Shown here one piece after another: positions 47-22,402 of a stretch of DNA of 22,821 nt (the first letter of the stretch is position 1; the number at the start of each line of letters is the position of its first letter). The notes beneath the pieces are model-generated. The model was not told where the DNA came from and did no database searches. It worked only from the letters and a program-made list of their open reading frames with translations. A program made the translations under genes and the position numbers. Source of the DNA: a virus. The stretch covers positions 1-22,821 of the IMG/VR virus record IMGVR_UViG_3300043446_002665, one strand, 5' to 3'.

Positions 47-742
47 ATGCAACAGATAAGTATTTGTATCCCAACTTGGAATAGGGTAGAAATGACCCTA
101 AATAGCTTTAAAAAAGTTTATAATGACGCTAGAATAGATACCATTGTAATAGTAGATGATGCTAGTGATATTGATGTGTATACTAGACTTAAAGAAGAAT
201 GTGATAAGTTAAGTAAGGTTAAGCTTTACAGAAATGTTACAAATCAGGACTGTTATGCCAATAAATTCGTAGCCGTTAGCTATTCACCAACTGATTATTG
301 TATACTTTTAGATAGCGACAATCAGATAGATGAAACATACATAGATAAGATATATTCTCAAACTTGGGATAAAAAGACCATACTAGCACCCGATTTTGCA
401 AAGCCATTATTTGATTATACAGAATTTAGTGGACTTACAATATCTAAGGAGAATGTGGCAAAATACATGGATAGACCATTCTTTGCCACTTGCTTAAATT
501 GCATGAACTATTTTGTTGCTTCAATGGAATATGTTAAAGTTTGGGATGCAAATACAGACCCACATAGTTCTGATAGTATATATCAAAACATGAACTGGTT
601 TAAATGGGGTAATAAAATGCACATTGTGCCGGGTATGCAATACGAGCACTTAGTTCACGATGAATCACACTATAAGTTGAATTGTAGCATAGACCCAGAA
701 TTTTATCAAAAAGTTGAAGAAGAACTTAGAAATATGAAATAA
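47..742 (+). CDS. GT2-type glycosyltransferase
   Basis: This 231-residue protein has the layout of a small GT-A fold, family 2 glycosyltransferase, which transfers a sugar from a nucleotide-sugar donor. The N-terminus reads ISICIPTWNR, the usual first beta strand. It is followed by VDDAS at about residues 36-40 and by LLDSDN at about 87-92, which corresponds to the DxD-like metal and nucleotide-binding motif. The C-terminal part with YEHLVHDESHY may contribute to the acceptor side, but this is not certain. No signal peptide or membrane segment is visible, so it should be cytoplasmic. It opens a run of glycan genes. Donor and acceptor cannot be read from the sequence. The start is ATG with an A-rich leader and no Shine-Dalgarno sequence. 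Confidence 0.85.
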   Translation: MQQISICIPTWNRVEMTLNSFKKVYNDARIDTIVIVDDASDIDVYTRLKEECDKLSKVKLYRNVTNQDCYANKFVAVSYSPTDYCILLDSDNQIDETYIDKIYSQTWDKKTILAPDFAKPLFDYTEFSGLTISKENVAKYMDRPFFATCLNCMNYFVASMEYVKVWDANTDPHSSDSIYQNMNWFKWGNKMHIVPGMQYEHLVHDESHYKLNCSIDPEFYQKVEEELRNMK

Positions 743-760
743 ATTATTTATTTTAGTATC

Positions 761-865
761 GCTTAATTCATAAAAAAATGGTTAGTTGTTAAATAAGACA
801 TACCCCCGAAAACAAGACGTTCAAGCCCCCCTGCGTGAATTAAGCCGTCTTGTCGTAGGGGGCTT
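761..865 (+). ncRNA. Candidate structured leader RNA with three interlocked helices
   Basis: The 129-nt gap before the GT11 gene holds three perfect complementary pairs. Helix C is 761-770 (gcttaattca) with 836-845, 10 bp. Helix A is 812-819 (acaagacg) with 846-853, 8 bp. Helix B is 823-830 (aagccccc) with 858-865, 8 bp. The strands run C-A-B-C'-A'-B', so they cannot nest: they must form pseudoknots or be alternatives. C' touches A' directly. B' is followed by TTTT and ends six bases before the ATG at 872, so helix B could act as a terminator or hide the translation start. A partial copy of the 5' strands (aagac at 795-799, ccccc at 803-807) could compete. No known RNA family is recognised. 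Confidence 0.6.
778..792 (+). other. Possible 4-codon leader ORF (MVSC)
   Basis: An ATG preceded by a run of seven A residues opens a four-codon frame, MVSC, ending in TAA. It lies inside the loop of helix C of the structured leader. Translation here could affect folding, as leader peptides do in attenuators, but nothing besides the A-rich leader supports translation. It may be chance. Confidence 0.12.
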
Positions 866-871
866 TTAATT

Positions 872-1609
872 ATGGTAACATTTACAAACGCTGGAAGAAT
901 GGGTAACTGGTGCTTTGAAGCAGCAACCGCAATAGCTTATGCCTTAAAGCATGACCTAGATTTTACTGTGCCATCCCATAGCGAAAATCCTAAATGGAAT
1001 CCCATATATTGCTTACACTTAGTTAATCCTAATTATAACCCAAGCTTAGAAAAGATTAATTTATGGGAGGGTAAGCATAGTTATGAAGAACTACCTTTTA
1101 ATGAAGAATGGAGGGATAAGAATATTTCAATAGAAGGTTATAGACAAACCGCTAAATACTTTGATGAGTACAGGAACGAAATACTTTATTTATTTAATTT
1201 CCCATACAATAAAAAAGAAGGATATGTTGCTTGCCATGTCCGTAGAGGAGATTATGTTCAATTAAGGGATAAGCACCCTGAAGTAAAAGTAGAATGGTAT
1301 GAAAAAGCTATGGCAGAATTTCCCGGATACAAGTTTAAGTTCTTTTCTGATGACATTGAATGGTGTATGGAGAACTTTAAGCACAGAAATGATTGCGAAT
1401 TTTCTGGTAATACTGATGAGGTATCAGACCTATTAGAAATGAGTTGGTGCGAGCATCAGATATGCAGCCCAAGTACATTTAGTTGGTGGGGCGGATGGCT
1501 CAATAGAAACGAAAATAAGAAAGTTATATTCCCTACTTTTTGGTTTAGCCCCGGTTGGGATGGATTAGATACTAGCGATATTGTTCCACCTTATTTTATA
1601 AAAATGTAA
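872..1609 (+). CDS. GT11 alpha-1,2-fucosyltransferase-like protein
   Basis: This 245-residue protein carries the signatures of family GT11, which transfers L-fucose from GDP-L-fucose in alpha-1,2 linkage. The N-terminal donor-fold motif GRMGNWCFEAATAIAYA spans about residues 8-24. HVRRGDYV at 122-129 is the family's HxRRxDY motif, which binds the GDP-sugar. FFSDD lies near 157-161, and SPSTFSWWGGWLN at about 199-211 is the conserved C-terminal motif. The protein is slightly short for the family (often 280-300 residues) but all motifs are present. No fucose synthesis genes are visible, while a GDP-mannose 3,5-epimerase-like gene lies two genes downstream. The true donor may therefore be GDP-L-galactose, which differs from GDP-L-fucose only by the 6-hydroxyl. 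That substrate idea is inference. Confidence 0.88.
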   Translation: MVTFTNAGRMGNWCFEAATAIAYALKHDLDFTVPSHSENPKWNPIYCLHLVNPNYNPSLEKINLWEGKHSYEELPFNEEWRDKNISIEGYRQTAKYFDEYRNEILYLFNFPYNKKEGYVACHVRRGDYVQLRDKHPEVKVEWYEKAMAEFPGYKFKFFSDDIEWCMENFKHRNDCEFSGNTDEVSDLLEMSWCEHQICSPSTFSWWGGWLNRNENKKVIFPTFWFSPGWDGLDTSDIVPPYFIKM

Positions 1610-1611
1610 TT

Positions 1612-2199
1612 ATGAGTGATTTTTTAATGTTTGATTTTCCGCATTTCTATCAGAAGATTGCAAAAGAACTTCCTGATGATTGTAAAGTTTGTGAGGTTGG
1701 AGTTGCTGATGGTGATAGTGCCTTGTATTTGGCTCAAGAGTTGAATAGACTTGGAAAAAAGTTTAAGATGTATATGGTGGATAATATGGATTACGGAAAG
1801 TATATCCAAATGAAAACCATATATCAAAACATAATTAAAAGTGGATTAGGTGAATTTATAGAAGTGGTTCCGTTTGGTAGTTTAGATGCCGCAAAAATGT
1901 TTAATGACGGATACTTAGATTTCTGTTATATAGATTCATCACATACATACGAAGAAACTAAAAAAGAAATTAGAGCTTGGTATCCGAAAGTTAAAGATGA
2001 GTATATATTAGCAGGACATGATTATAATGCAGATGAAGTACGTAGAGCAGTTGAAGAAGTTGTTCCTAAAGTATTTGTAAGAGATGATATTGGTGATAGA
2101 AGTTTTAATCCTGAAAATGTATTACAATCAGAAGATACTTTAAATCACTTTGGCGTATGGTGGTTTAGAAAACAATGGTATTTAAAACTAAATAAATAA
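1612..2199 (+). CDS. Class I SAM-dependent methyltransferase
   Basis: This 195-residue protein has a Rossmann-type S-adenosylmethionine fold. Motif I is CEVGVADGDSALYL at about residues 27-40, with the glycine-rich loop that holds SAM. VDNMD at 56-60 supplies the acidic residue for the ribose. FCYIDSSHTYEETKKEI at about 104-120 and AGHDY near 134-138 resemble the Methyltransf_24 and TylF-like families, which methylate sugar hydroxyls or small molecules. The gene begins two bases after the GT11 stop and ends two bases before the epimerase, so it belongs to the same operon. It probably O-methylates a sugar of the glycan made here. The acceptor is unknown. Confidence 0.82.
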   Translation: MSDFLMFDFPHFYQKIAKELPDDCKVCEVGVADGDSALYLAQELNRLGKKFKMYMVDNMDYGKYIQMKTIYQNIIKSGLGEFIEVVPFGSLDAAKMFNDGYLDFCYIDSSHTYEETKKEIRAWYPKVKDEYILAGHDYNADEVRRAVEEVVPKVFVRDDIGDRSFNPENVLQSEDTLNHFGVWWFRKQWYLKLNK

Positions 2200-2201
2200 A
2201 C

Positions 2202-3191
2202 ATGAAAACAGCATTAGTTTGTGGCGCAGGTGGATTCATTGGTAGCCACATGGTAAAAAGATTGAAGAAAGAAGGATATTGGGTAAGAGGTGTTGATTTA
2301 AAAAAACCTGAATATTCGGACACAGAAGCAGACCATTTTGTAGTTGGCGACCTTAGAAACCCAGAAGTTGTAAGCAGGGTTACATTTGGGCCTAATCAAA
2401 GTGATATTTATGGCGGACATGGTTCGTTTGATTTGGTTATTCAAATGGCTGCTGATATGGGTGGTGCTGGATATATATTTACAGGAGATAATGATGCAAA
2501 TGTGATGCATAATTCTGCATTGGTAAATTTAAACATGGTTTATTATTGCACTAGAAATAAAGTAAAGAAGATATTATTTTCATCTTCAGCTTGTGCGTAC
2601 CCAGAGCATATTCAAGATAGAGAAGATAGTGCAGCTTTAAAAGAAAGTGATTGTTTCCCTGCAAATCCAGATTCGCCTTACGGATGGGAGAAGATATTTA
2701 GTGAAATATTATTTGATTCATTCAGAAGAAATTATGGTTTAGATGTTAGAATCTGTAGATTTCATAACATATTCGGACCTGAATCATGTTACAATAATGG
2801 TAAAGAAAAGGCACCTGCTGCTGTATGCTATAAAGTAGCTTCTGTTGAAGAAGGCGGTGAAATAGAAATATGGGGTGATGGAAAGCAAACAAGGTCTTTC
2901 CTTTTTATAGATGAAGCAGTAGAAGGTGTAATGAGGTTATTAGATGGTGACTATGTTCACCCTGTTAATATTGGTTCAAATGAAATGATTGCAATTAATG
3001 ATTTAGCCAAAATGGTTATTGATATTTCTGGAAAGAAATTAAGTATAAAAAATGTAGAATCAAATGCAATTGGTGTACGTGGTAGAAATTCTGACAATAC
3101 ATTGATAGAAGAAAAATTAGGATGGAAACCATCAAGACCGCTTCGTGAAGGAATGGAAAAATTATATAACTGGATTAATCAAAAAGTATAA
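2202..3191 (+). CDS. GDP-mannose 3,5-epimerase-like SDR enzyme
   Basis: This 329-residue extended short-chain dehydrogenase resembles GDP-mannose 3,5-epimerase (GME), which converts GDP-D-mannose to GDP-L-galactose (and GDP-L-gulose). The NAD-binding loop GAGGFIG is at residues 8-14. MAADMGGAGYI at 82-92, FSSSACAYPE at 126-135, RFHNIFGPE near 186-194, KEKAPAA at 201-207, WGDGKQTRSF near 224-233 and GVRGRNSDNT at 291-300 are close to GME as I recall it. S129, C131, Y160, K164 and K203 match the spacing of the plant enzyme's S143, C145, Y174, K178 and K217, so the catalytic set is complete. It sits in a tight operon with the GT11 gene. A different hexose nucleotide substrate is possible, but the retained cysteine and second lysine favour GME. 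Confidence 0.85.
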   Translation: MKTALVCGAGGFIGSHMVKRLKKEGYWVRGVDLKKPEYSDTEADHFVVGDLRNPEVVSRVTFGPNQSDIYGGHGSFDLVIQMAADMGGAGYIFTGDNDANVMHNSALVNLNMVYYCTRNKVKKILFSSSACAYPEHIQDREDSAALKESDCFPANPDSPYGWEKIFSEILFDSFRRNYGLDVRICRFHNIFGPESCYNNGKEKAPAAVCYKVASVEEGGEIEIWGDGKQTRSFLFIDEAVEGVMRLLDGDYVHPVNIGSNEMIAINDLAKMVIDISGKKLSIKNVESNAIGVRGRNSDNTLIEEKLGWKPSRPLREGMEKLYNWINQKV

Positions 3192-3192
3192 T

Positions 3193-3816
3193 ATGCTGAT
3201 ACCATTAAAACCCGTACTTGAAAAGTATGATATAAAATTGAATGGAGTTGTTCACGTTGGAGCTCATTGGGCTGAAGAACATGATGATTACATTGATTGT
3301 GGATTAAAAGGTTTTTTGTATGTTGAACCAATCAAAGATGCATTTGAGGTTTTAGTTGAAAAGTTCGCAGGAAACCTTAGTGTTAAACTGGAAAATGTAG
3401 CAATTGGAAGTAAGGAAGATATTGGAGTAATGTGCGTTGATACAACCAATCAGGGTCAAAGTAATAGTTTGCTAGAGCCATTTGTGCATTTAGAACAGCA
3501 CTCTGAGGTGATTTTTAATGGTGACCCACAAGTTGTTAAGATAGTAACATTGGATAGTATTGGATTCCCAACATGGTACAATTTATTTATGGTTGATACT
3601 CAGGGATATGAACTAGAAGTTCTAAAAGGTTCTCAAAGTGTTTTACCTCAATTTGATTTATTATACCTAGAAGTTAACAGACAGGAAACTTATAAAGGTT
3701 GCCCTATGGTAGAGGAGTTAGATGAATTTCTTTTACCTTTCGGATTTCATAGAGTAGAAACAAAATGGGCTTCTGATTATCACTCTTGGGGTGATGCCAT
3801 TTGGATAAAAAAATAA
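3193..3816 (+). CDS. FkbM-type methyltransferase
   Basis: This 207-residue protein resembles the FkbM family (Methyltransf_21), SAM-dependent O-methyltransferases common in polysaccharide clusters. VVHVGAHWAEEHDDYIDCG near residues 19-37 is the SAM-binding loop in its typical FkbM form. YVEPIKDAF near 44-52 gives the acidic ribose-binding residue. VDTQGYELEVLKGS near 135-148 is the family's hallmark DxxGxE-LxVLxG motif, and LYLEVN follows. The ATG at 3193 was chosen because it lies two bases after the epimerase stop; the longer frame from 3145 would overlap the epimerase by about 47 bases. It is the second methyltransferase of the island, which suggests a glycan methylated at two sites. The acceptor is unknown. 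Confidence 0.83.
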   Translation: MLIPLKPVLEKYDIKLNGVVHVGAHWAEEHDDYIDCGLKGFLYVEPIKDAFEVLVEKFAGNLSVKLENVAIGSKEDIGVMCVDTTNQGQSNSLLEPFVHLEQHSEVIFNGDPQVVKIVTLDSIGFPTWYNLFMVDTQGYELEVLKGSQSVLPQFDLLYLEVNRQETYKGCPMVEELDEFLLPFGFHRVETKWASDYHSWGDAIWIKK

Positions 3817-5819: not shown

Positions 5820-8147
5820 ATGCAGCAACAGACAAATACATATCCTAACCAACAGATTGACCCAAGGGACAAAGGATACGACTGGATTTTAGCTTATGTT
5901 AAAAGTGCTTGGGGAGATAGTAGGGGTTATGTACCAAACAATATGCTCAATTTCGGTCAATCAAAAATGAACGAAATTAGAGAGTATGCATTAGGTAGAC
6001 AAAGTACAACTAAATATAAAAAAATGTTGCTCGCAGATGAGCAAACAGATAAAAGCTGGTTGAATATCGACTGGACTCCGCCATCATTTTTGACTAAATT
6101 TAGGGAGATTGCTATTTCAAAGTTGGTGCAAAGGAGATACGATATTCAAGCATTTGCTGTAGACCCATTAGCTAAGAGTGAAGAAGATGCTTACTTCAAT
6201 GAAATGAAGGTTAAGATTATGATGCGTGAAGCATTGAAGAAAGCTGGAGGAGAAGAACTTGCAGATAGCCCTGTGTTAGCACCAGCTCCCGGAGAGCCGC
6301 AAGACATGGAGCAATTAGAAATGGAGCAGCAGTTTGGATATAAGCACGTGATGTCTATGGAGGCAGAGCAAGCTGTATCATTGGCTTTTTATCAAAATAA
6401 ATTTGATGATAAAAGAAAAAGAACTTTAGAAAATTTATTTGATTTTGGTATTGGTGGATATACGCAATGGATTGATGAAAATGGTCACGTAAGACTAAGA
6501 GAAATTAATCCTGAAAACATGGTTTTATCTTATTGTGCAAAAAGTGATTTTTCTGATTTAGTGCATTGGGGTGAAGTAAGAGAAATGTATATTGGAGATT
6601 TAGCTCCGTATTTTACAGCAGACCAAATGAATCAAATGGTTACTTCTGTTGCAGGAAGATTTGGTAATCCATCAAACTTTATGTACGGAACCGACTATTC
6701 TAAATATTGGAATAGATTTAAAATATTAGTTTTAGATTTTGAATTTTTATCTTGGAACGATTATACTTACAAAGAGGAAGTAGATGGTCGTGGTAATATA
6801 AGATTTGGTAAAACAAAATATCAGGCTGCATCAAGAATGGCTGTTAATCAGTTAGGTTCATTAGAAGCTGAGTTTAATAAGCCAATGAGCCAAACAGAAA
6901 GTAAAGGTCAAGCAGAACCTGTATTTATGCCTGTAACTAAAAAAGTTGTTTACAAGTGTAAATGGGTTGTGATGACTGACTTTATGTTTGATTGGGGTAT
7001 GTCTGAAAACCAAATTAGAAAACCATCATCTTGGTGGGATACTCAATTAAATATCCAATTATATTCTTGGAACTTCTATAAGATGCGTTTTGCTGGTATT
7101 ACAGAAAGACTTATCCCATTAGAAGATAAAGCTTGTTTAGCTTGGTTTAGATTACAGAATATGTCTAATAAACTTATTCCGTATTTAATAAATATTGACC
7201 TTAACGCACTTGAGGGTGTAGACTTTGGTGGAGGTGGAGATAAAATGAATCCTACTAAGGTTATGGATTTCATTTTCTCAAACTTTGTTGTTCCTTATCG
7301 TTCAACAGATTTGTTAAGCCAAAACCCTAACTACAAACCAGTAAGTATTGAAGCTTCAGGTCAATTAGCTGTATTCGGACAATTGTATGATGACTTAATG
7401 CGCACTATTGATTTAATGCGTCAAGTATCTGGATTAAACGAATTAACAGATGGTTCTACTCCTAATGCAAGAACTTTAGTTCCTGTTGCAAATGCAGCAA
7501 TGGAAAGTACCAATAATGCTCTTTACTTATTGAACTTTGCAGATAAGCAATTGATTCAATCTTTAGCAGATGCAGTTGTTGCTAAAGTTCAAATAGCTGT
7601 TAAGTTAGGTAAAGTTCAAGGTGTGGCTAAAGCTTTAGGTGAGGAAACAGTTAAGTTTTTACAAATTAATCCTAATCTATCTATTCATGAGTTTGGTATT
7701 TTTATTGAAGATGCGCCTCAAGATTATGAAAGACAACAATTAATTCAAGAGTTAAATATTCGTGACTCTCAAGGATTAATTGAGCCTGAAGATAAGATTT
7801 TAGTAATGAGTTGCCGTAATTTGAAAATGGCTTCTATGATTTTGGCTTACAGAATCAAAAAGCGTAGAGAACAAATGCAGCAGTTTGAATTACAGAAAAT
7901 TCAACAACAAACGCAAGGTAATGCTCAAGCAGCTCAAGTTGCAGAACAAGAAAAGAGAACCACTTTGCAAGCTCAATTAGAATTAGATATTGCTAAGATA
8001 AATGCTGAGAAGCAATGGGAATACATTATCCAAATGGGTAAGAAAGAAAGCGATATTCAAGAAGCTAAGATTCAAAGTGATGCAAAAGTTATTGCTCAAA
8101 GAATTTCAGCAGAAGCTAAAATAACAGTTAACAACAATAAAAAATAA
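5820..8147 (+). CDS. Portal protein
   Basis: This 775-residue protein is the likely portal, the dodecameric ring at one head vertex through which DNA is packaged and released. Its size, its place ahead of scaffold and capsid genes, and the layout support this. An alpha-beta N-terminal region is followed by a wing-like part with LFDFGIGGYTQWID near residues 206-220 and NPENMVLSYCAKSDFSD. A long helical part with IDLMRQVSGLNELTDGSTPNA follows (quoted in part: DLMRQVSGLNELT). The last 90 or so residues are glutamine- and alanine-rich and probably form a coiled coil (KIQQQTQGNAQAAQVAEQEK region). Large portals of this kind occur in Bacteroidota podoviruses, including crAss-like phages, but I cannot assign the subgroup. 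It has lost exclusive use of the upstream promoter through the HNH insertion. Confidence 0.78.
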   Translation: MQQQTNTYPNQQIDPRDKGYDWILAYVKSAWGDSRGYVPNNMLNFGQSKMNEIREYALGRQSTTKYKKMLLADEQTDKSWLNIDWTPPSFLTKFREIAISKLVQRRYDIQAFAVDPLAKSEEDAYFNEMKVKIMMREALKKAGGEELADSPVLAPAPGEPQDMEQLEMEQQFGYKHVMSMEAEQAVSLAFYQNKFDDKRKRTLENLFDFGIGGYTQWIDENGHVRLREINPENMVLSYCAKSDFSDLVHWGEVREMYIGDLAPYFTADQMNQMVTSVAGRFGNPSNFMYGTDYSKYWNRFKILVLDFEFLSWNDYTYKEEVDGRGNIRFGKTKYQAASRMAVNQLGSLEAEFNKPMSQTESKGQAEPVFMPVTKKVVYKCKWVVMTDFMFDWGMSENQIRKPSSWWDTQLNIQLYSWNFYKMRFAGITERLIPLEDKACLAWFRLQNMSNKLIPYLINIDLNALEGVDFGGGGDKMNPTKVMDFIFSNFVVPYRSTDLLSQNPNYKPVSIEASGQLAVFGQLYDDLMRTIDLMRQVSGLNELTDGSTPNARTLVPVANAAMESTNNALYLLNFADKQLIQSLADAVVAKVQIAVKLGKVQGVAKALGEETVKFLQINPNLSIHEFGIFIEDAPQDYERQQLIQELNIRDSQGLIEPEDKILVMSCRNLKMASMILAYRIKKRREQMQQFELQKIQQQTQGNAQAAQVAEQEKRTTLQAQLELDIAKINAEKQWEYIIQMGKKESDIQEAKIQSDAKVIAQRISAEAKITVNNNKK

Positions 8148-13379: not shown

Positions 13380-16300
13380 ATGGCAATACAAGGTTTTTTT
13401 ACCGGTGATGTTAAGATAAGAGATTTAAACGGTGTATTAAAGGCCGTAGATGGTATTGTAGAAGTAGCAACTGATGCAGGTACGGTAACGAGTGTTGGAT
13501 TAACAGTTGGTTCTACAGGGACCGATGTAAATGTTGCAAATAGCCCAGTTACTACAAGTGGTAATATTACTTTGAATTTACCAAGTGCATCTGCAACTAA
13601 TAGAGGTTTATTGAGTGCTTCTGATTGGACTTCGTTTAATTCTAAACAAGGAACAATTACATTAACTACAACTGGTAATAATGGTTCTGCAACTTTGATT
13701 AGCGGAACTTTAAATATTCCAACATATACTTTAGCTGGACTTGGTGGTATTAGCTTGACTTCATTGAGCGCATCAAGCCCTTTAGCTTATAATAATACTA
13801 CAGGAGCATTTTCTATACAAGTAGCAAATGATTCTCAATCTGGTTATTTAAGTAGCTCTGATTGGACAGTTTTTAATAGCAAACAAGCTGCATTAACTTT
13901 TAGTGCTCCTTTAGTAAACACAGCAGGAACTATTTCAATACCTGCTGCAACAAGTTCTGTGAATGGTTATTTAACTTCTACAGATTGGAGTACGTTCAAT
14001 AACAAGCAAGCAACAATTACACTTACTACTACAGGAAGTAGTGGAGCTGCTACGTTAATTGGGGCAACTTTAAATATACCAAATTATACCGGTGGACTAA
14101 GTGGTTATGTTCCATATACGGGAGCAACTACAAATGTTGACCTAGGTGAATATGAATTAAAAGCTGGACAATTAACACTTGATGTATCTCCAACAGGAAC
14201 TGCTGCGGTGGGGACTACTCGATGGAATAATACTATCGGAAGTAGCGAAACTACATTAAAAGGTGGTAATGTCATTTTAAAGAATGGCGTTGATTTGGTT
14301 GCTAGAGTTGTAAATAAGGTTACACCAAATACTACTTTAACAAAAGCTGGTTATGCTGCTGTAAGGGTAAGTGGTGCACAAGGACAAAGATTAGCTGTTG
14401 CTTATGCACAGGCTAATAATGATAACAATAGTGCTGATACTATTGGATTGGTAACTGAAACAATTGCTACCAATCAGGAAGGATTTATCATGACCGTGGG
14501 TCAGCTTTTGGATATTGATACTACAGGTTCATTACAAGGTGAAACTTGGGCTGATGGTGATGTTTTATATTTAAGCCCAACTACTGCTGGTGCTTTAACG
14601 AATATAAAGCCAAACGGCTCTACAGGGCATATTGTGGTAATGGGTTATGTGGAATACGCACACGCTAATCACGGTAGTATCTATGTAAAAATAATGAACG
14701 GTTGGGAGCTTGATGAATTACACAATGTGTATATCTCATCTGTAGCTAACAATCAAGGTTTGTTCTATGAAAGTTCAACACAACTTTGGAAAAATAAAAG
14801 TATTGCAACTGTTTTAGGATATACCCCTGCAAATGCAGCTACTACAATTACAATAAACGGAACTACTTACGATATTTCTACAAACAGAACATGGTCTGTA
14901 GGAACTGTTACTAGCATTGGTACAAGTGGACCGATTACTGGTGGTACAATAACTGGTTCAGGAACTATAGGTATTACTCAGGCAACTACTTCAACAGATG
15001 GTTATTTGAGCTCTACTGATTGGAATACTTTTTATAATAAACAAGCGGCAGGAAGTTATATTACTGCATTAACAGGTGAGGCTACAGCTTCAGGACCGGG
15101 AAGTGCTAGTGTAACTTTAAGTACTTCTGCGGTTACAGGTAAGCTGCTTACAGGATTAAATTTAACAGGTGGTGGTTCTATTGCTGCTACTGATTCTATA
15201 TTACAGGCTTTTGGTAAAGTGCAAAACCAAATCTCAGGATTAGCTGGTGGTGTTACTTATCAAGGCACATGGAACGCATCTACAAATACTCCTACACTAA
15301 CAAGTTCTGTTGGAACTAAGGGGTACTATTACATAGTAGATGTAGCTGGTTCTACCAACTTAAATGGTATTACCGATTGGAAAGTGGGTGACTGGGCTAT
15401 ATTTAATGGCTCTACATGGGATAAAGTGGACAATACAGACGCAGTAAGTTCGGTGAACGGGTTTACAGGAGCAGTGAGTTTGACTACTTCTAATATTGCA
15501 GAAGGTACTAATTTATACTATTTAGACTCAAGAGCAAGACTTGCATTAAGCTTTACGGCAGGTTCGGGAGCTTATGATAATACTACTGGTGTTATTACAA
15601 TTCCAACCAATACAAGTCAGCTAACTAACGGTGCAAATTTTATTACCCTTTCTTCGCTATCTGCAAGCTCACCATTGGCTTATAATAGTGGTACTGGGGC
15701 TTTCTCTATCCAAGTGGCTACAGGCTCTCAAAATGGCTATTTAAGCTCTACAGACTGGACTACTTTTAATGGTAAGCAAAATGCTTTAACTTTAACGACT
15801 ACAGGCTCTAGTGGGTCTGCTACTTTAGTGGGTGCTACATTGAATATACCTACCTATACTTTAAGTGGTTTAGGTGGTGTGCCTACAAGCAGACAATTGA
15901 CTATTAATGGAACTGCTTATGATTTAAGTGCAGATAGAAGCTGGTCAGTTGGTACACATACCGGTTCTTTAACTTCAGGATATATACCTAAAGCTACAGG
16001 AAGTACAACGCTTACAGATGGTTTATTGTATGATACTGGTTCTGCGGTTCTATTAGGAACACAGACGGCTGGTTCTGGTAAGTTTATGGTGTACTCTAGT
16101 ACAGCAGATAACCATTACCAAGCTATCGGTACAGCCCCTTCGTTTAGATTTGCAGATACAATCACTTCTCCTACGTATACAGGTATAATTGGACTAGCTA
16201 CAGCAAGTAACCACTTTATTATTGGAGCAGCAGCAGGCGATATGGTACTTGCAAATAATACATCATCTGTAGGTAACTTCTTATTTGGAACGGGAGCTAC

Positions 16301-18611
16301 AGAGAGAATGAGGATTAATGCGACTACGGGTAACGTATCTATTGGTAATACAGGAAATACATTTAAGCTTGAGGTTACAGGAACTACTAAGATTAGTGGT
16401 CAATTGACTTTAGGTTCTACAATAACCAACGGAACATATACTTATACTTTACCAAGTGCTACAGGAACTATTGCTTTAACAAGTGATATAAGTGGTATGA
16501 TTACAGGAAGTGGTACTACAAACTACCTACCTAAGTTTACAGGTGCAAGTACAATAGGGAATAGTTTAATACAAGATGATGGTACAACAGTATCAATAAC
16601 AAGAACGGCAGGAGATTTAGAATTATCTTTATGGGCAGGTAATACAACTAATGCAGGAAATTCTATTCTTGGTTTATATGCAGGAACAGGAGCAGGTAAT
16701 TTAGTTCCTTATGGTACTATAAAAGTTAGTCCTGATGCTGCAGGAAATACAAGAGCAGCTAAAATGGTATTTGGAGTTAGGCAAAGTGGTGGCTCTTTAT
16801 TAGATGCATTAACTATTAATTCTTCAGGCAATTTAGGATTAGGAGTTACACCGAGTGCGTGGGGAAGTGCTAGTGCTGGGACATTGGAAAATAGTGCAGG
16901 TGCTTTATGGAGAATATCTACTTCTGCAATAGGGGTTGTTCAAAATGGTTATTATAATGGAACAAATTGGATTTATACAAATACTGCAGCTGCCACTGAT
17001 TATTATCAATCTTCTGGAGAGCATAGATGGAGAATAGCTCCTTCAGGAACGGCAGGTAACGCTATATCCTTTACCCAAGCAATGACGTTAAACGCTTCAG
17101 GGCAATTACTTTTAAATAGAACATCATCTTTTAATTCAGGGACATATACAGGACAGAAGTTACAAGTAACAGGTGGTATAGGTATAAATTCAGATAGTGC
17201 AGACGGAGTAGCAAGATTAACTTTATTAGGAAGTTCTGCAACTGGAGATGGAACTATTGATTGGGGTGGTAATGGGAACTTTAATTTAGTATTTTCTAAT
17301 AATGGTAGTGAGAGAATGCGCATCAATGCATCTGGAAACGTATCAATAGGAAACACTAATGATACATATAAACTTGATGTAACAGGTACGGGTAGATTTA
17401 CGGCATCAGCATATTTTGCTACAAGTTCTGGTAGCGTTGGTATAGGCACAACTAGTCCAGCCAGAAAACTTGAAGTATATGCTGTAGACCCATCATTTGC
17501 ATTGAAATCAAGTACCACTACAGGATATAGCGAACTTTACTTTGCAGACAGTGCATCTGATTCGGTTGGGTTTATAAGCTATGCTCACAGTACAGATTCT
17601 ATGGTATTGGGGACGTCTGGTAGTACACGACTTACAATAGCCTCTACAGGAGCAGCTACATTCTCAAGTAGTGTAACGGCAACAGGTGGTTTTGAAATTC
17701 CAAATGGTCAGTTTTATAGAGCAAGAAGAAGTAGCGGAAGTTTACTTACTGATATGATTGGTATTCCAAGCGGTACAGATGATGTGAGAATATTAACCAC
17801 AGGAGATTTTAATGTAATAAATGGTTCATTATCTAATATATTAACTGTTAAAAATAACGGCTCAGTAGGTATAGGTACTACATCGCCAAGTGTAAAACTA
17901 CAAGTTGAGGATAGTTCATCTACATCATTAACTACACTATATCTTGTAAACTCAAGTACAGCAGCAGTTACAACAAAGCAAAACAACTTGTCATTTAGAA
18001 TGACAGATACAGTTGGAACAAGAAAAAATGCATTTCAATTAACAGCATATTCTGATAGCTCGGGTGGTAATATTGAAAATGGAGGATTAATATTTTCAGG
18101 AAGAAAGGCAGACCTTGATACAGAGTTTATGCGCATAACAAGTGGGGGGTCAGTTATTGTTAATGGTACATCTTCTGCATATAATTCAGTAAGACAACAA
18201 ATTTGGTTTACAGGTGCAAGTACTCAATATGGATTAAGTATAGCAGCACTTAATACTGGAAATACTAATTTTATTGATTTTAATATAGGAAGTGGAAGTA
18301 GTGGTTTTGCAGGTTCTATATCTTGGAATGGAAGCACAGTAGCTTACAATACATCTTCCGACTATCGTCTTAAACAAAATTTCAAAGATTATAGTGGTCT
18401 TGATTTAATAAATAAGATTAAGACATACGATTACGAATGGAAGGCAGATAAAAGCCGTTCTTATGGTGTTATTGCTCACGAGTTACAATCAGTAATCAAT
18501 TACGCAGTAACGGGCGAAAAAGACGGAAAGGAAATGCAAGGAGTAGATTATAGCAAAATAGTACCTGTACTTATTAAAGCAATTCAAGAATTAAACGATA
18601 AAATAAAATAA
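13380..18611 (+). CDS. Large tail fibre with C-terminal S74 chaperone
   Basis: This 1743-residue protein is the largest in the window and the probable receptor-binding fibre. Residues 1-60 may attach it to the tail. Five copies of a GYLSSxDWxxFNxKQ motif follow, separated by LTTTGSSGxATLxGATLNIP-type segments. A domain at about 310-480 contains SGAQGQRLAVAYAQANN and GLVTETIATNQEGF. A QGTWNASTNTPTLTSSVG segment near 630 resembles a carbohydrate-binding-like fibre module. The second half repeats NVSIGNTxxxxKLxVTGT-type units near 990, 1320, 1360 and 1500. The C-terminus from S1659 (SSDYRLK, SYGVIAHELQ, VDYSKIVPVLIKAIQEL) is a peptidase S74 intramolecular chaperone, which helps the fibre trimerise and then cuts itself off. 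Confidence 0.9.
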   Translation: MAIQGFFTGDVKIRDLNGVLKAVDGIVEVATDAGTVTSVGLTVGSTGTDVNVANSPVTTSGNITLNLPSASATNRGLLSASDWTSFNSKQGTITLTTTGNNGSATLISGTLNIPTYTLAGLGGISLTSLSASSPLAYNNTTGAFSIQVANDSQSGYLSSSDWTVFNSKQAALTFSAPLVNTAGTISIPAATSSVNGYLTSTDWSTFNNKQATITLTTTGSSGAATLIGATLNIPNYTGGLSGYVPYTGATTNVDLGEYELKAGQLTLDVSPTGTAAVGTTRWNNTIGSSETTLKGGNVILKNGVDLVARVVNKVTPNTTLTKAGYAAVRVSGAQGQRLAVAYAQANNDNNSADTIGLVTETIATNQEGFIMTVGQLLDIDTTGSLQGETWADGDVLYLSPTTAGALTNIKPNGSTGHIVVMGYVEYAHANHGSIYVKIMNGWELDELHNVYISSVANNQGLFYESSTQLWKNKSIATVLGYTPANAATTITINGTTYDISTNRTWSVGTVTSIGTSGPITGGTITGSGTIGITQATTSTDGYLSSTDWNTFYNKQAAGSYITALTGEATASGPGSASVTLSTSAVTGKLLTGLNLTGGGSIAATDSILQAFGKVQNQISGLAGGVTYQGTWNASTNTPTLTSSVGTKGYYYIVDVAGSTNLNGITDWKVGDWAIFNGSTWDKVDNTDAVSSVNGFTGAVSLTTSNIAEGTNLYYLDSRARLALSFTAGSGAYDNTTGVITIPTNTSQLTNGANFITLSSLSASSPLAYNSGTGAFSIQVATGSQNGYLSSTDWTTFNGKQNALTLTTTGSSGSATLVGATLNIPTYTLSGLGGVPTSRQLTINGTAYDLSADRSWSVGTHTGSLTSGYIPKATGSTTLTDGLLYDTGSAVLLGTQTAGSGKFMVYSSTADNHYQAIGTAPSFRFADTITSPTYTGIIGLATASNHFIIGAAAGDMVLANNTSSVGNFLFGTGATERMRINATTGNVSIGNTGNTFKLEVTGTTKISGQLTLGSTITNGTYTYTLPSATGTIALTSDISGMITGSGTTNYLPKFTGASTIGNSLIQDDGTTVSITRTAGDLELSLWAGNTTNAGNSILGLYAGTGAGNLVPYGTIKVSPDAAGNTRAAKMVFGVRQSGGSLLDALTINSSGNLGLGVTPSAWGSASAGTLENSAGALWRISTSAIGVVQNGYYNGTNWIYTNTAAATDYYQSSGEHRWRIAPSGTAGNAISFTQAMTLNASGQLLLNRTSSFNSGTYTGQKLQVTGGIGINSDSADGVARLTLLGSSATGDGTIDWGGNGNFNLVFSNNGSERMRINASGNVSIGNTNDTYKLDVTGTGRFTASAYFATSSGSVGIGTTSPARKLEVYAVDPSFALKSSTTTGYSELYFADSASDSVGFISYAHSTDSMVLGTSGSTRLTIASTGAATFSSSVTATGGFEIPNGQFYRARRSSGSLLTDMIGIPSGTDDVRILTTGDFNVINGSLSNILTVKNNGSVGIGTTSPSVKLQVEDSSSTSLTTLYLVNSSTAAVTTKQNNLSFRMTDTVGTRKNAFQLTAYSDSSGGNIENGGLIFSGRKADLDTEFMRITSGGSVIVNGTSSAYNSVRQQIWFTGASTQYGLSIAALNTGNTNFIDFNIGSGSSGFAGSISWNGSTVAYNTSSDYRLKQNFKDYSGLDLINKIKTYDYEWKADKSRSYGVIAHELQSVINYAVTGEKDGKEMQGVDYSKIVPVLIKAIQELNDKIK
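13605..15779 (+). repeat. Five copies of a 15-codon fibre repeat
   Basis: Copies lie at 13605-13649, 13842-13886, 13965-14009, 15000-15044 and 15735-15779. Each encodes a variant of GYLSSTDWTTFNNKQ. Spacing is uneven, with flanking LTTTG...ATLNIP units around some copies. DNA copies have diverged at third codon positions, so they look old rather than recent duplications. Confidence 0.85.
18354..18611 (+). other. Peptidase S74 domain and predicted self-cleavage site
   Basis: The 85 codons from the serines at 18354-18359 encode the S74 chaperone. By analogy with endosialidase and T5 fibre chaperones, cleavage is expected at the serine of the SDxRLK motif (S1659 or S1660), with the nearby lysine as part of the dyad. 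The mature fibre would then be about 1658 residues. Confidence 0.75.
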
Positions 18612-19433: not shown

Positions 19434-19619
19434 ATGACAAATCACAGTCACCAAGCCGACATCGCTACACTAATTAGCATTTCTGGAGCAGCCGTAACAA
19501 TAAGCGCTATCCAACCATTTGTAAGTTTAGCTGCCGGTTTGGTGGCTATAGTGTCAGGTATATTTGCTATCAGATACTACCATAAGAAAACTAAGAACAT
19601 CAAAAAACGTGACGCATAA
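19434..19619 (+). CDS. Holin-like small membrane protein (61 aa)
   Basis: This 61-residue protein has a short polar N-terminus with two histidines, then a hydrophobic stretch from about residue 10 to 48 (IATLISISGAAVTISAIQPF and onward) that fits two membrane helices with a tight turn at QPF. It ends in a strongly basic tail, YYHKKTKNIKKRD. Small size, two helices and a basic C-terminus are typical of holins, which open the inner membrane for the endolysin. Its stop overlaps the start of the spanin gene in TAATG. At least two other holin-like proteins lie in the same block, so which one is the main holin cannot be told. Confidence 0.55.
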   Translation: MTNHSHQADIATLISISGAAVTISAIQPFVSLAAGLVAIVSGIFAIRYYHKKTKNIKKRDA

Positions 19620-20056
19620 TGAGAAAGGTAGCATTTTTACTACTTTTCCTTTGTAGCTGCGCAACAGTTAAGAAGAACGAGAAAAGAATGGATAGTACCG
19701 TAACTCGTACTATTGATTCAGTTCATATAACCTTATACGATAGCGTAACCAAGGTCATTGAAAAAGAACAGTATTTCACAAAAACAGTAACATACTACGA
19801 TACCTTATGGGTAACTAAGGATAGTATGATTACCATACCGAAATACACAGAAACATGGACTTCTGGAACCAAAGAGAAGCAATCCGATACCAAACTAAGC
19901 AAAAAGGATTCTGTTAATACAGCTAAATCCGAAACAATCCAAAAAACCACCACAGAGAAAAGCAAAGAAAAAACTGCTAACAATCTGTATAAGATACTAT
20001 TCTTTCTTATGCTGATAGTTGTAGTTATTTATATTTATGAAAAGCTTAGAAAATGA
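19619..20056 (+). CDS. Candidate unimolecular spanin (lipoprotein with C-terminal membrane helix)
   Basis: This 145-residue protein has the topology of a unimolecular spanin, as in phage T1 gp11. The N-terminus MRKVAFLLLFLCSC is a lipoprotein signal with lipobox LCSC, so C14 would be lipid-modified and anchored to the outer membrane. About 105 polar, lysine- and threonine-rich residues would span the periplasm; the first half looks beta-prone (alternating TVTYYDTLWVTKD) and the second is charged and flexible. Residues 124-140 (ILFFLMLIVVVIYIY) form a single C-terminal helix for the inner membrane. Spanins fuse the two membranes in the last step of lysis of Gram-negative hosts. Topology, size and location agree; sequence families of spanins are too diverse to use. 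Confidence 0.75.
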   Translation: MRKVAFLLLFLCSCATVKKNEKRMDSTVTRTIDSVHITLYDSVTKVIEKEQYFTKTVTYYDTLWVTKDSMITIPKYTETWTSGTKEKQSDTKLSKKDSVNTAKSETIQKTTTEKSKEKTANNLYKILFFLMLIVVVIYIYEKLRK

Positions 20057-20139
20057 AGCAGATAAATCATAATATCAAAGGTTTTGTTTGGGGGTTGGGG
20101 TTTATTATAGCATTAACATTATTAATTCTATTGACATGA
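20053..20139 (+). CDS. 28-residue membrane microprotein
   Basis: A 28-codon frame starts in an ATGA overlap with the spanin stop and ends in an ATGA overlap with the next gene's start, filling the gap exactly. The product has a polar, basic N-terminus (MKQINHNIKGF) and one hydrophobic helix (VWGLGFIIALTLLILLT). Overlaps at both ends argue for real, coupled translation. It may be a small holin partner, an antiholin, or a way to couple translation across the gap. No family is recognised. Confidence 0.6.
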   Translation: MKQINHNIKGFVWGLGFIIALTLLILLT

Positions 20140-20375
20140 AAAGATTATTTAGCTGGGCTTCGGGCTTCCTCTCAGATAACGGAGAAGCATCAAGCAAAAG
20201 ATTAGTTGGTATTGTTTGTGCAGGATTCCTTTGTTGGACTATGTACGCTAATTCATTTACAGAGGAGCATTTTGCTCCATCAGCTATATTAGTTGAATCT
20301 GTAGCTGCATTGGCTTTTGGTTGCCTTGGACTTACAAGTGCTGAAAAGATATTTAAGAAAGAAAAAACCGACTAA
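20136..20375 (+). CDS. Two-helix holin-like protein (79 aa)
   Basis: This 79-residue protein has an N-terminal cytoplasmic-looking part (FSWASGFLSDNGEASSKR), a first membrane helix at about 22-38 (LVGIVCAGFLCWTMYA), a short loop with acidic residues, and a second helix at about 49-67 (SAILVESVAALAFGCLGLTS), ending in a basic tail. The SSKR-helix-loop-helix-GCLGLTSAEK pattern is familiar from small lysis-region proteins of Bacteroidota phages. The start at ATG 20136 was chosen because it overlaps the stop of the 28-codon gene in ATGA. A longer frame from 20088 would lie mostly inside that gene and adds a poor N-terminus. Confidence 0.65.
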   Translation: MKRLFSWASGFLSDNGEASSKRLVGIVCAGFLCWTMYANSFTEEHFAPSAILVESVAALAFGCLGLTSAEKIFKKEKTD

Positions 20376-20378
20376 AAG

Positions 20379-20714
20379 TTGGATAATTTTGTAGCTCATT
20401 TCCTAGATGGGGGGTGGGTAGTTTTGCTGATAGGAGCTGCTGGGATGGTAGCTAGACTTGTTACTACTAATGAGGAACAATCTAGTACCGATGTGTTTAA
20501 GAAAATGGTAAGTTCTATGATAGCCTCGTTAATTGCGTGGTTTGTTATGGAACAGTTTGAGGTTGATTCTATGTATAAGGCTGTTGCGTATGGTTTAGTT
20601 GGTTTGAATAGCCCTGAAATAATACAAGGAGTGCTTAAAATAAGCGGACAGTTTGCTGCTGACCCTATGTCATTTATGAAAAAAGAACAACCGAAAACAA
20701 AACGAAAAAAATGA
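20379..20714 (+). CDS. Three-helix holin-like protein (111 aa), TTG start
   Basis: This 111-residue protein shows three hydrophobic segments at about residues 11-28 (GGWVVLLIGAAGMVARLV), 42-58 (KMVSSMIASLIAWFVME) and 64-86 (MYKAVAYGLVGLNSPEIIQG), and a very basic C-terminus (KKEQPKTKRKK). That fits a class I type holin. The only in-frame start that keeps the first helix is TTG at 20379, four bases after the previous stop; the first ATG would remove most of that helix. The stop overlaps the next start in ATGA. With its three helices and charged tail it is the most holin-like protein here. Confidence 0.6.
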   Translation: MDNFVAHFLDGGWVVLLIGAAGMVARLVTTNEEQSSTDVFKKMVSSMIASLIAWFVMEQFEVDSMYKAVAYGLVGLNSPEIIQGVLKISGQFAADPMSFMKKEQPKTKRKK

Positions 20715-21370
20715 AAAACACACTACTAATTATACTAACTGCTATTATTTTAGCTATCGCAGGGTTTGGTAAATATGTAGAATACACTATTAAAAAAACA
20801 GCTACAAGTGTTTACGAAGATAGGTTAGTACCTCAACCTTATTTGAGCCGCAAGTTTGATTATTACGGCTCAACCATACAAGACCAAATTAAAGTTATTA
20901 AAGGTGGAAAGATAGACCTAGTTGCTATCCAAAAGGAAAAAGATATAACCGATACAATGTGGGCTGCATACCTTAAAACTTACCAAACAGGAGAAGAAAA
21001 AGAGGTAAGTGATAAGGCTCAAATGTATATTGATACGGCAGACGCTTATTTTGAAAAGATTTCAGCAGATGGCATCGTTACAGATGAGGAAGCTAAGGAG
21101 ATGGATAAAAAGATTTATCCCGTATTGGAGTATGTAAATGACCTAATAGACATACAAACTACCATTGGTGCTAAAGACACTAAGGGAATGATAAGCCTAC
21201 TTAACAAGTTTTCTAATTTTATGATAGGGGCAATTGCTTTGGCTATTGCTCTTTTAGGTTCTATTGTTTATGACATATTTAAAAATAGAAAACAAGTTGT
21301 TAAAAAGGTTGTGAAAAAAACAGCAAAAAAACCAATTAAAAAAGCAACTCCTAAAAATAAAAAGAAATGA
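20711..21370 (+). CDS. Membrane protein with chemoreceptor-type four-helix sensor domain (4HB_MCP-like)
   Basis: This 219-residue protein has a first membrane helix at 4-18 (TLLIILTAIILAIAG), a periplasmic domain at about 25-165, a second helix at about 168-186 (SNFMIGAIALAIALLGSIVY) and a lysine-rich tail (residues 191-219, 16 lysines). The periplasmic part reads like the four-helix bundle of methyl-accepting chemotaxis proteins: VYEDRLVPQPYLSR at 34-47, DTMWAAYLKTYQTGEEKEVSD at 81-101 (core WAAYLKTYQTGEEK), and IYPVLEYVNDLIDIQ at 135-149. There is no HAMP or methyl-accepting signalling domain; the tail resembles basic histone H1-like or nucleic-acid-binding tails. It is coupled to both neighbours by ATGA overlaps and sits between holin-like and endolysin genes. 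A role as lysis regulator or receptor decoy is inference. Confidence 0.72.
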   Translation: MKNTLLIILTAIILAIAGFGKYVEYTIKKTATSVYEDRLVPQPYLSRKFDYYGSTIQDQIKVIKGGKIDLVAIQKEKDITDTMWAAYLKTYQTGEEKEVSDKAQMYIDTADAYFEKISADGIVTDEEAKEMDKKIYPVLEYVNDLIDIQTTIGAKDTKGMISLLNKFSNFMIGAIALAIALLGSIVYDIFKNRKQVVKKVVKKTAKKPIKKATPKNKKK

Positions 21371-21801
21371 GATTTATAGCAATAATGTGTTTATGTTTTG
21401 CGTTAAAGGGTAAAGCCCAGTATTATGTTATGGCTGCCCCAAACGTAGCTTTTAACACACCATTAAACGATACTAAGAATTTGTTAGGTGGAACTATTGA
21501 GGTAGGAAAGTATTTTGGTAAAACGGCAGTAGGCATTAATAGCGGTTGGTGGACTTTAGATAGTAAAGATTTTTACCAAGAAGTTATGGCTACATTTCCA
21601 ATTTATGAAAACTTTAGTGTAAGTGCAGCAATAGGCTATTTCTACCATTATAAAGATATAACAATGGAATACGATTTTAACTATACTATTCCATTGAAAA
21701 AAGATTATTCATTTGTGCTAAGTTATGGTGCTCAAAGTGCTTTTGGTGGAACTTTTGGAGCATATTCATTAGGTATTAATAAAGACTTTAAAATAAGATA
21801 A
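21367..21801 (+). CDS. Small secreted outer-membrane beta-barrel-like protein
   Basis: This 144-residue protein has a signal peptide, MRFIAIMCLCFALKGKAQ, with the KAQ end typical of Bacteroidota type I cleavage sites. The remaining 126 or so residues alternate hydrophobic and polar residues in strand-like segments: GGTIEVGKYFGKTAVGINSG, SVSAAIGYFYHY, DITMEYDFNYTIPL, DYSFVLSYGAQSAFG and AYSLGINKDFKI. This pattern, ending with a short charged C-terminus, fits a small outer-membrane barrel of about eight strands. The start overlaps the sensor gene stop in ATGA and the endolysin begins one base after its stop. It might block re-infection, act in lysis or alter the host surface. I recognise no specific family. 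Confidence 0.6.
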   Translation: MRFIAIMCLCFALKGKAQYYVMAAPNVAFNTPLNDTKNLLGGTIEVGKYFGKTAVGINSGWWTLDSKDFYQEVMATFPIYENFSVSAAIGYFYHYKDITMEYDFNYTIPLKKDYSFVLSYGAQSAFGGTFGAYSLGINKDFKIR

Positions 21802-21802
21802 C

Positions 21803-22402
21803 ATGAAACTAGACGCATTATCCAAGAAACTTCCTGCAAACGTAATGGATGAAATACCTATTATTATGGAAAATTTTGGTATTGATAATCCATTAAAGTT
21901 ATCTCACTTCTTATCTCAATGCGCTCATGAAAGCGGTAATTTTAAGTTTGTAAAAGAAAACTTAAACTATTCTGCTGATGGGCTTCGTAAAATATTCCCT
22001 AAATATTTTCCAACCCAAGAAATAGCAGAAAAGTATGCAAGACAACCAGAAAAGATTGCCAACAAAGTTTATGGCGGACGTATGGGTAATGGTGATGAAG
22101 CTTCAGGAGATGGTTTTAAGTTCAGAGGTCGTGGTTATATTCAGCTTACTGGTAAGGATAATTACGCAGCGTTTGATAAGTTTGTAGATGATGATATTAT
22201 GGCTAATCCAGATTTAGTAGCTACCAAATATCCACTTACTTCTGCTGCTTTCTTTTTCCATAAGAATAAATTATGGGATGTGTGCGACAAGGGTCATGGT
22301 GATGATATAGTTCTAGCGGTTACAAAGCGTGTAAATGGCGGGGTAATTGGGCTTGAGGAAAGACAAAAGAATTTTGATTTCTTCTACAATACATTAGCAT
22401 AA
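21803..22402 (+). CDS. GH19-type endolysin (chitinase-like lysozyme)
   Basis: This 199-residue protein is a glycoside hydrolase family 19 type lysozyme that cleaves peptidoglycan glycan strands. SHFLSQCAHESGNFKFVKENLNYSADGL at about residues 34-60 contains the catalytic glutamate E43 in AHESGNF and a likely second acid, E52. FRGRGYIQLTGKDNY at 107-121 is the hallmark substrate-binding motif, and VTKRVNGGVIGLEERQ lies near 173-188. It has no signal peptide, so it needs a holin to reach the wall, which agrees with the holin-like genes just upstream. It is a single domain with no separate wall-binding part, as is usual for phages of Gram-negative hosts. Confidence 0.92.
   Translation: MKLDALSKKLPANVMDEIPIIMENFGIDNPLKLSHFLSQCAHESGNFKFVKENLNYSADGLRKIFPKYFPTQEIAEKYARQPEKIANKVYGGRMGNGDEASGDGFKFRGRGYIQLTGKDNYAAFDKFVDDDIMANPDLVATKYPLTSAAFFFHKNKLWDVCDKGHGDDIVLAVTKRVNGGVIGLEERQKNFDFFYNTLA

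Follow-up and report, generated by a model that had tools for sequence, protein, structure and literature searches.

Lysis locus and gene order

The window, which is the whole 22,821-nucleotide stretch of viral DNA analysed here, carries towards its end a compact run of genes on one strand, encoding small membrane proteins, a secreted barrel and an endolysin. Within this run lies the gene for a protein with two transmembrane (TM) helices and a predicted periplasmic four-helix bundle (4HB) of the kind found in methyl-accepting chemotaxis proteins (MCPs), here called the 4HB protein. The genes of the block, and the parts of the 4HB protein, are:

19434..19619, + strand: small two-TM protein of 61 aa and holin-like size (hydropathy)
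19619..20056, + strand: candidate unimolecular spanin, with a lipobox-like start (LFLCSC) and a C-terminal TM helix (sequence, hydropathy)
20136..20375, + strand: small two-TM protein of 79 aa (hydropathy), whose place around the block varies in relatives
20379..20714, + strand: holin-III (LydA-like) protein, 111 aa, TTG start, basic tail
20711..21370, + strand: 4HB protein, 219 aa, ATG start
4HB protein, about residues 3-22: TM1 (hydropathy segment about 5-23; AlphaFold2)
4HB protein, about residues 23-165: periplasmic MCP-type four-helix bundle, between TM1 and TM2
4HB protein, about residues 166-188: TM2 (hydropathy segment about 172-190; AlphaFold2)
4HB protein, residues 189-219: C-terminal cytoplasmic tail, basic and lysine-rich
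21367..21801, + strand: secreted, eight-stranded outer-membrane barrel, OmpX/OmpA-like, the usual third member after the 4HB gene
21803..22402, + strand: endolysin of GH19 type (phrog_181 endolysin, 2e-66; PF00182), right after the barrel gene

The 4HB gene is joined to both of its neighbours by ATGA overlaps, as the earlier note had read from the sequence: the TGA of the holin-like gene (20712-20714) overlaps its start, and its own TGA (21368-21370) overlaps the ATG of the barrel gene at 21367. The spanin candidate at 19619..20056 has no family match at curated cut-off in Pfam/PHROG-type profile searches, and a scan of the whole window found no tRNA and no Rfam RNA. Elsewhere in the window, glycosyltransferases (GT2, GT11) and a sugar epimerase are encoded ahead of the structural genes (47-3191) and perhaps serve glycan modification by the phage; a 1743-aa repetitive tail-fibre-like protein (13380-18611) has a Peptidase_S74 chaperone domain at its end.

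Relationship to chemoreceptor sensor domains

Taken from the window protein by itself, the assignment to the 4HB_MCP families is weak, since its match to 4HB_MCP_1 (PF12729; E 0.0022, 18 bits) falls under the 27-bit Pfam cut-off. The assignment is settled because its relatives match: 23 of the 25 close relatives scanned do so, the best at 1.6e-5, and six of nine distant relatives lie above the 27-bit cut-off, the best of these (46.4 bits, E 4.4e-12) spanning nearly the whole model. Matches to TarH (PF02203) are weak, the best being 1.2e-4 among distant relatives. Of the two profiles against which the earlier note had wanted its by-eye domain call checked, 4HB_MCP_1 is thus recovered in the relatives, but the window protein stays under the cut-off.

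The 4HB protein also finds, in tblastn searches, the ligand-binding domains of MCPs encoded on Azospirillum and Agrobacterium plasmids (E 1e-5 to 2e-4). These plasmid MCPs align with it in register from TM1 to helix a4 and have in common with it the positions D-R-x-x-P, W-x-x-Y and L-x-x-x-Q, with the residues D37, R38, P41, D50, Y52, W84, Y87, E96 and Q149. An hhalign comparison of the phage 4HB family with the plasmid MCPs gives a probability of 99% (E 5e-18, 160 columns), a figure flattered because the MCPs compared were chosen by their likeness to the query. The motif LSxxFDYYG in a1 is phage-specific.

An AlphaFold2 model built from a 25-sequence alignment (mean pLDDT 81) has helices at residues 2-39, 42-62, 70-88, 94-117 and 125-193, in the order TM1/a1, a1b, a2, a3, a4/TM2, and a disordered tail from 196. 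The best four matches of a Foldseek search against the PDB are all to the ligand-binding domain of the chemoreceptor Vc1313 (E 0.009-0.024), and the best VIA-align match is the ligand-binding domain of MCP2201 (Z 14.6, 2.0 A over 119 aa). The model, its PDB matches and hydropathy all bear out a four-helix bundle between two TM helices. Scores for helical-bundle folds are not decisive alone, so the claim of MCP homology is based on the sequence evidence; Pfam matches of relatives, plasmid-MCP alignments and predicted fold agree, and they show that the 4HB ectodomain is homologous to MCP ligand-binding domains, as had been proposed.

Several other matches stand apart from this relationship. A PDB sequence search with the phage 4HB profiles returned chance matches only, and cytochrome b562 constructs, the best PDB matches of a mixed phage-MCP profile, were taken as chance bundle similarity. 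A scan for the motif W-x-A-Y-L found, besides the 4HB family, five tape-measure-like proteins, likewise taken as chance. The best viral structure match, BFVD A0A8S5L4P1, is named '4HB MCP domain-containing' (TM-score 0.72 by query); it is filed under an ssRNA phage, and could come from a phage or from a fragment of host sequence.

Loss of the signalling half

MCP ligand-binding domains (4HB_MCP_1/TarH; MCP2201 and Vc1313 are examples) and the phage protein are built alike, as a TM-four-helix bundle-TM unit. The two part company after TM2, where a whole receptor has HAMP and MCPsignal domains: the 4HB protein has neither, ending 31 aa past TM2 in its basic tail, and its gene is paired with a holin-like gene. 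MCPsignal (PF00015) was not found in 15 phage records, in a search that was positive in 8 of 14 controls. The replacement of HAMP and signalling domains by a tail, already noted from the window, is therefore upheld, and a chemoreceptor-type outer part without the signalling part may be a sensor that gates lysis timing. An i-spanin of the Rz type, with a single N-terminal TM helix and a periplasmic C-terminus, was considered and set aside, since the 4HB protein has a second TM helix, followed by a basic tail.

Conservation of the 4HB family

Close relatives of the 4HB protein are encoded on 62 IMG/VR contigs, and the wider family extends to 137 IMG/VR stretches, with distant members 30-43% identical to the window protein. 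The gene is strongly conserved and under purifying selection, not a product of chance: dN/dS is 0.05 for the whole gene, 0.036 for the ectodomain and 0.21 for the tail, estimates for which synonymous sites are close to saturated. Helix a1b hardly varies within the close clade, where 20 of its 21 residues are invariant. Across the wide family, conservation is highest in TM1, a1 and TM2 (0.54-0.59) and falls to 0.36 and 0.30 in a2 and a3; both the 4HB and the holin-like proteins have basic tails throughout. Conserved TM1, a1 and TM2 beside variable a2 and a3 suggest a fixed membrane contact with a partner and a changeable outer part, a pattern that might be expected of a receptor whose output is a holin.

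The same figures bear on a plainer account, which we rate as rather improbable: a domesticated bundle that works as antiholin or holin chaperone without responding to any ligand or cue, and sets a fixed delay only. The pairing with a holin-like gene described below would fit it equally, and the variability of the outer helices a2 and a3 suggests that no ligand is common to the family. The near-total invariance of a1b on all of its faces in the close clade, however, goes beyond the apparent need of a passive bundle.

An obligate pair with a holin-like gene

The protein encoded directly upstream matches PF16083 (LydA) below the cut-off (E 1.2e-4; 22.6 of 28.4 bits) and phrog_6384 (holin) at 4e-7. 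Twelve of 16 members of its family match PF16083 weakly, the best at 2.5e-5, and its TM helices are its most conserved parts across the wide family. TTG is the apparent start of the holin-like gene in all close relatives examined (27 loci), and may hold its translation low.

The holin-like and 4HB genes form an obligate pair. A 4HB gene lies directly downstream of every distinct holin-like gene with readable downstream sequence (86/86), and a holin-like gene directly precedes 88 of 89 distinct 4HB genes, the exception being the tail piece of a frameshifted copy. The pairing was found from either side with independent baits, scans with the holin-like family as sole bait extending to relatives of about 50% identity, and the pair occurs on contigs of up to 322 kb. 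An antiholin is encoded with its cognate holin; the 4HB gene is so encoded in these loci, its partner being a putative holin. A clear PF05105 holin is additionally present in 4 of the 15 phage records, so the holin-like partner may be one of two holins, and perhaps not the main lysis holin. Phage P1 likewise encodes several holins (PMC9025707).

The surroundings of the pair are far less constant. In the close clade the holin-like, 4HB and barrel genes are kept together, whereas around them the endolysin, the spanin candidate and the small membrane genes have diverged, lie elsewhere or are absent; in one locus the 4HB protein is 97% identical and the endolysin 68% (L066). Nearby endolysin-type genes are of unrelated kinds (GH19, Amidase_2, Peptidase_M15_3), and endolysin and spanin genes are exchanged freely among relatives. 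Taken with the counts of pairing, the unrelated endolysins indicate that the pair stays together as a unit across lysis regions of differing make-up. The tie of the 4HB gene to lysis genes is in this respect stronger than the earlier note had it; the endolysin that it placed next after the barrel is there in the window (at 21803), but differs in type and place among relatives. Two relatives have overlapping genes that may form a two-gene spanin (L229:2704-3039 with 2948-3415; L240:5765-6115 with 6024-6491), one gene of each pair encoding a TM helix and a long hydrophilic helix and the other a signal peptide.

The outer-membrane barrel

The barrel model (AlphaFold2, pLDDT 86) matches OmpX, OmpA, NspA, OprF and proteins of Ail/OmpX type in the PDB. 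Its gene has a dN/dS of 0.07 and is present in 70 of 83 loci. With a conserved third gene of outer-membrane fold and another holin family in some relatives, the holin-like, 4HB and barrel proteins could together be a trans-envelope structural device for disrupting the envelope or placing the lysis machinery, the bundle then being a spacer or connector that senses nothing. The barrel gene keeps its place beside the 4HB gene almost as constantly as the holin-like gene does, and in this regard such a complex fits as well as a holin gate does. It nevertheless seems an unlikely account, if one of appreciable weight, in view of a barrel that is missing or moved in several loci, where the holin-4HB pair never is, and of a window that already has a spanin candidate for bridging the envelope.

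The match of the barrel to Ail/OmpX raises another reading. Phages encode small outer-membrane proteins of this type, such as lambda Lom, and the three proteins, expressed late, might bring about superinfection exclusion or some other envelope change with no role in lysis timing. The chances of this appear slim, given that, across unrelated loci, the genes lie within a block that also contains endolysin, holin-like and spanin-like genes.

Hosts and distribution

Judged by the portal protein, the nearest named phages infect Flavobacteriia (Flavobacterium, Cellulophaga, Tenacibaculum and Maribacter), and the signal peptide of the barrel ends in AQ, which is common in Bacteroidota. The likely hosts are Flavobacteriia, and the phages are apparently of Bacteroidota. 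Gliding is the usual movement of Flavobacteriia, which are not known to use MCP chemotaxis. The portal relatives and the AQ signal peptide make interference with host chemotaxis unlikely, and with it the second role once suggested for the 4HB protein, that of pairing with host chemoreceptors and disabling them. True homology to MCP sensor domains and the retention of both TM helices would suit such a role. It is scarcely credible all the same, because the fixed partner is the phage's own holin-like gene, the protein has no array-contact region, MCPsignal was not found in the 15 phage records and the probable hosts are Flavobacteriia.

A tblastn search with four 4HB members and two holin-like partners found no relative in 50,697 GenBank phage records, and eight records of Bacteroidota phages and related ones gave no match to the 4HB family profile, a search run without a positive control. 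Scans of bacterial genome contigs gave no 4HB relatives, and the open-access literature searched holds no description of a holin-paired chemoreceptor-type protein of this kind.

A possible sensory gate for lysis

The reading that we prefer, and to which we give slightly less than even weight, is that the 4HB protein is a membrane-anchored holin partner, probably an antiholin or gate fashioned from the sensor domain of a chemoreceptor. It draws together the sensor-domain homology and matching predicted fold, an obligate holin-like pair that overlaps by ATGA in the window and is kept as a unit while endolysin and spanin change, and a conservation that is best in TM1, a1 and TM2, with a nearly invariant a1b and strong purifying selection on the ectodomain. 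Telling against it are the sub-cut-off matches on which the holin assignment of the partner is based and the clear PF05105 holin in some of the records. The earlier suggestion that the protein times lysis is strengthened by these results; sensing, a ligand, the antiholin role, complex formation and an effect on lysis timing are what we infer from them.

By sequence and prediction, the 4HB protein is an inner-membrane protein descended from a chemoreceptor's sensor half. It would form a physical complex with the LydA-like holin-III partner made from the overlapping upstream gene. Its TM helices and helix a1 would hold the holin in the membrane, and its 4HB domain, perhaps dimeric as in MCPs, would meet a periplasmic cue and shift TM2, the shift either blocking or licensing hole formation. 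The outer-membrane barrel might let the cue in, or might itself be another partner. A fuller version is possible though doubtful: that a group of phages has converted a chemoreceptor's sensor half into a ligand-responsive, membrane-anchored gate on its own holin, such that a cue in the periplasm, chemical or from the envelope, triggers or holds lysis and is sensed at the membrane itself, with no signalling cascade in between.

The timing of lysis is understood in few phages, and what is known of environmental sensing by lysis proteins comes chiefly from T4-type lysis inhibition. The link of a chemoreceptor sensor domain to a holin-like partner, seen in some 90 distinct loci, makes a concrete candidate for a sensory lysis clock in Bacteroidota-type phages. 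If this is true, a receptor domain would have been reused with its signalling half left behind, a clean case in which to ask how 4HB domains transmit signals across TM helices.

Comparison with known systems

There are precedents for holin control of both kinds that the antiholin or gate reading calls on, and no homology to either is claimed. In phage P1, the antiholin LydB partners the holin LydA from the same operon (PMC9025707), an arrangement like the present one in that a LydA-family holin has a partner gene beside it. LydB, however, has no TM domain, no known homologue and no resemblance to the 4HB protein (PMC9025707), whereas the partner here is a two-TM protein of chemoreceptor type; this difference weighs against the reading. 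Holin control from the periplasm is exemplified by RI of phage T4 (PMC11413866). RI is a helical protein of the periplasm that probably reads a cue there and controls the holin T; it carries a cleavable signal peptide and is no member of the 4HB_MCP family, and T has a single TM helix and a periplasmic domain (PMC11413866, PMC8385771).

A parallel of another sort is phage VP882, which captured the host receptor VqmA to time lysis by a chemical cue (PMC10426928). VqmA, which the phage encodes as its own copy, is a cytoplasmic transcription factor, whereas the 4HB protein is a membrane protein that would act at the holin.

Cellulophaga phage phi14:2 encodes a TM-anchored PAS protein, g078 (L326:3336-3965), that overlaps the start of an endolysin gene. 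Unlike the 4HB protein, g078 has a PAS fold on one TM helix and no holin-like gene directly upstream; like it, g078 places a sensor-type domain with a TM helix in the lysis region of a Bacteroidota phage.
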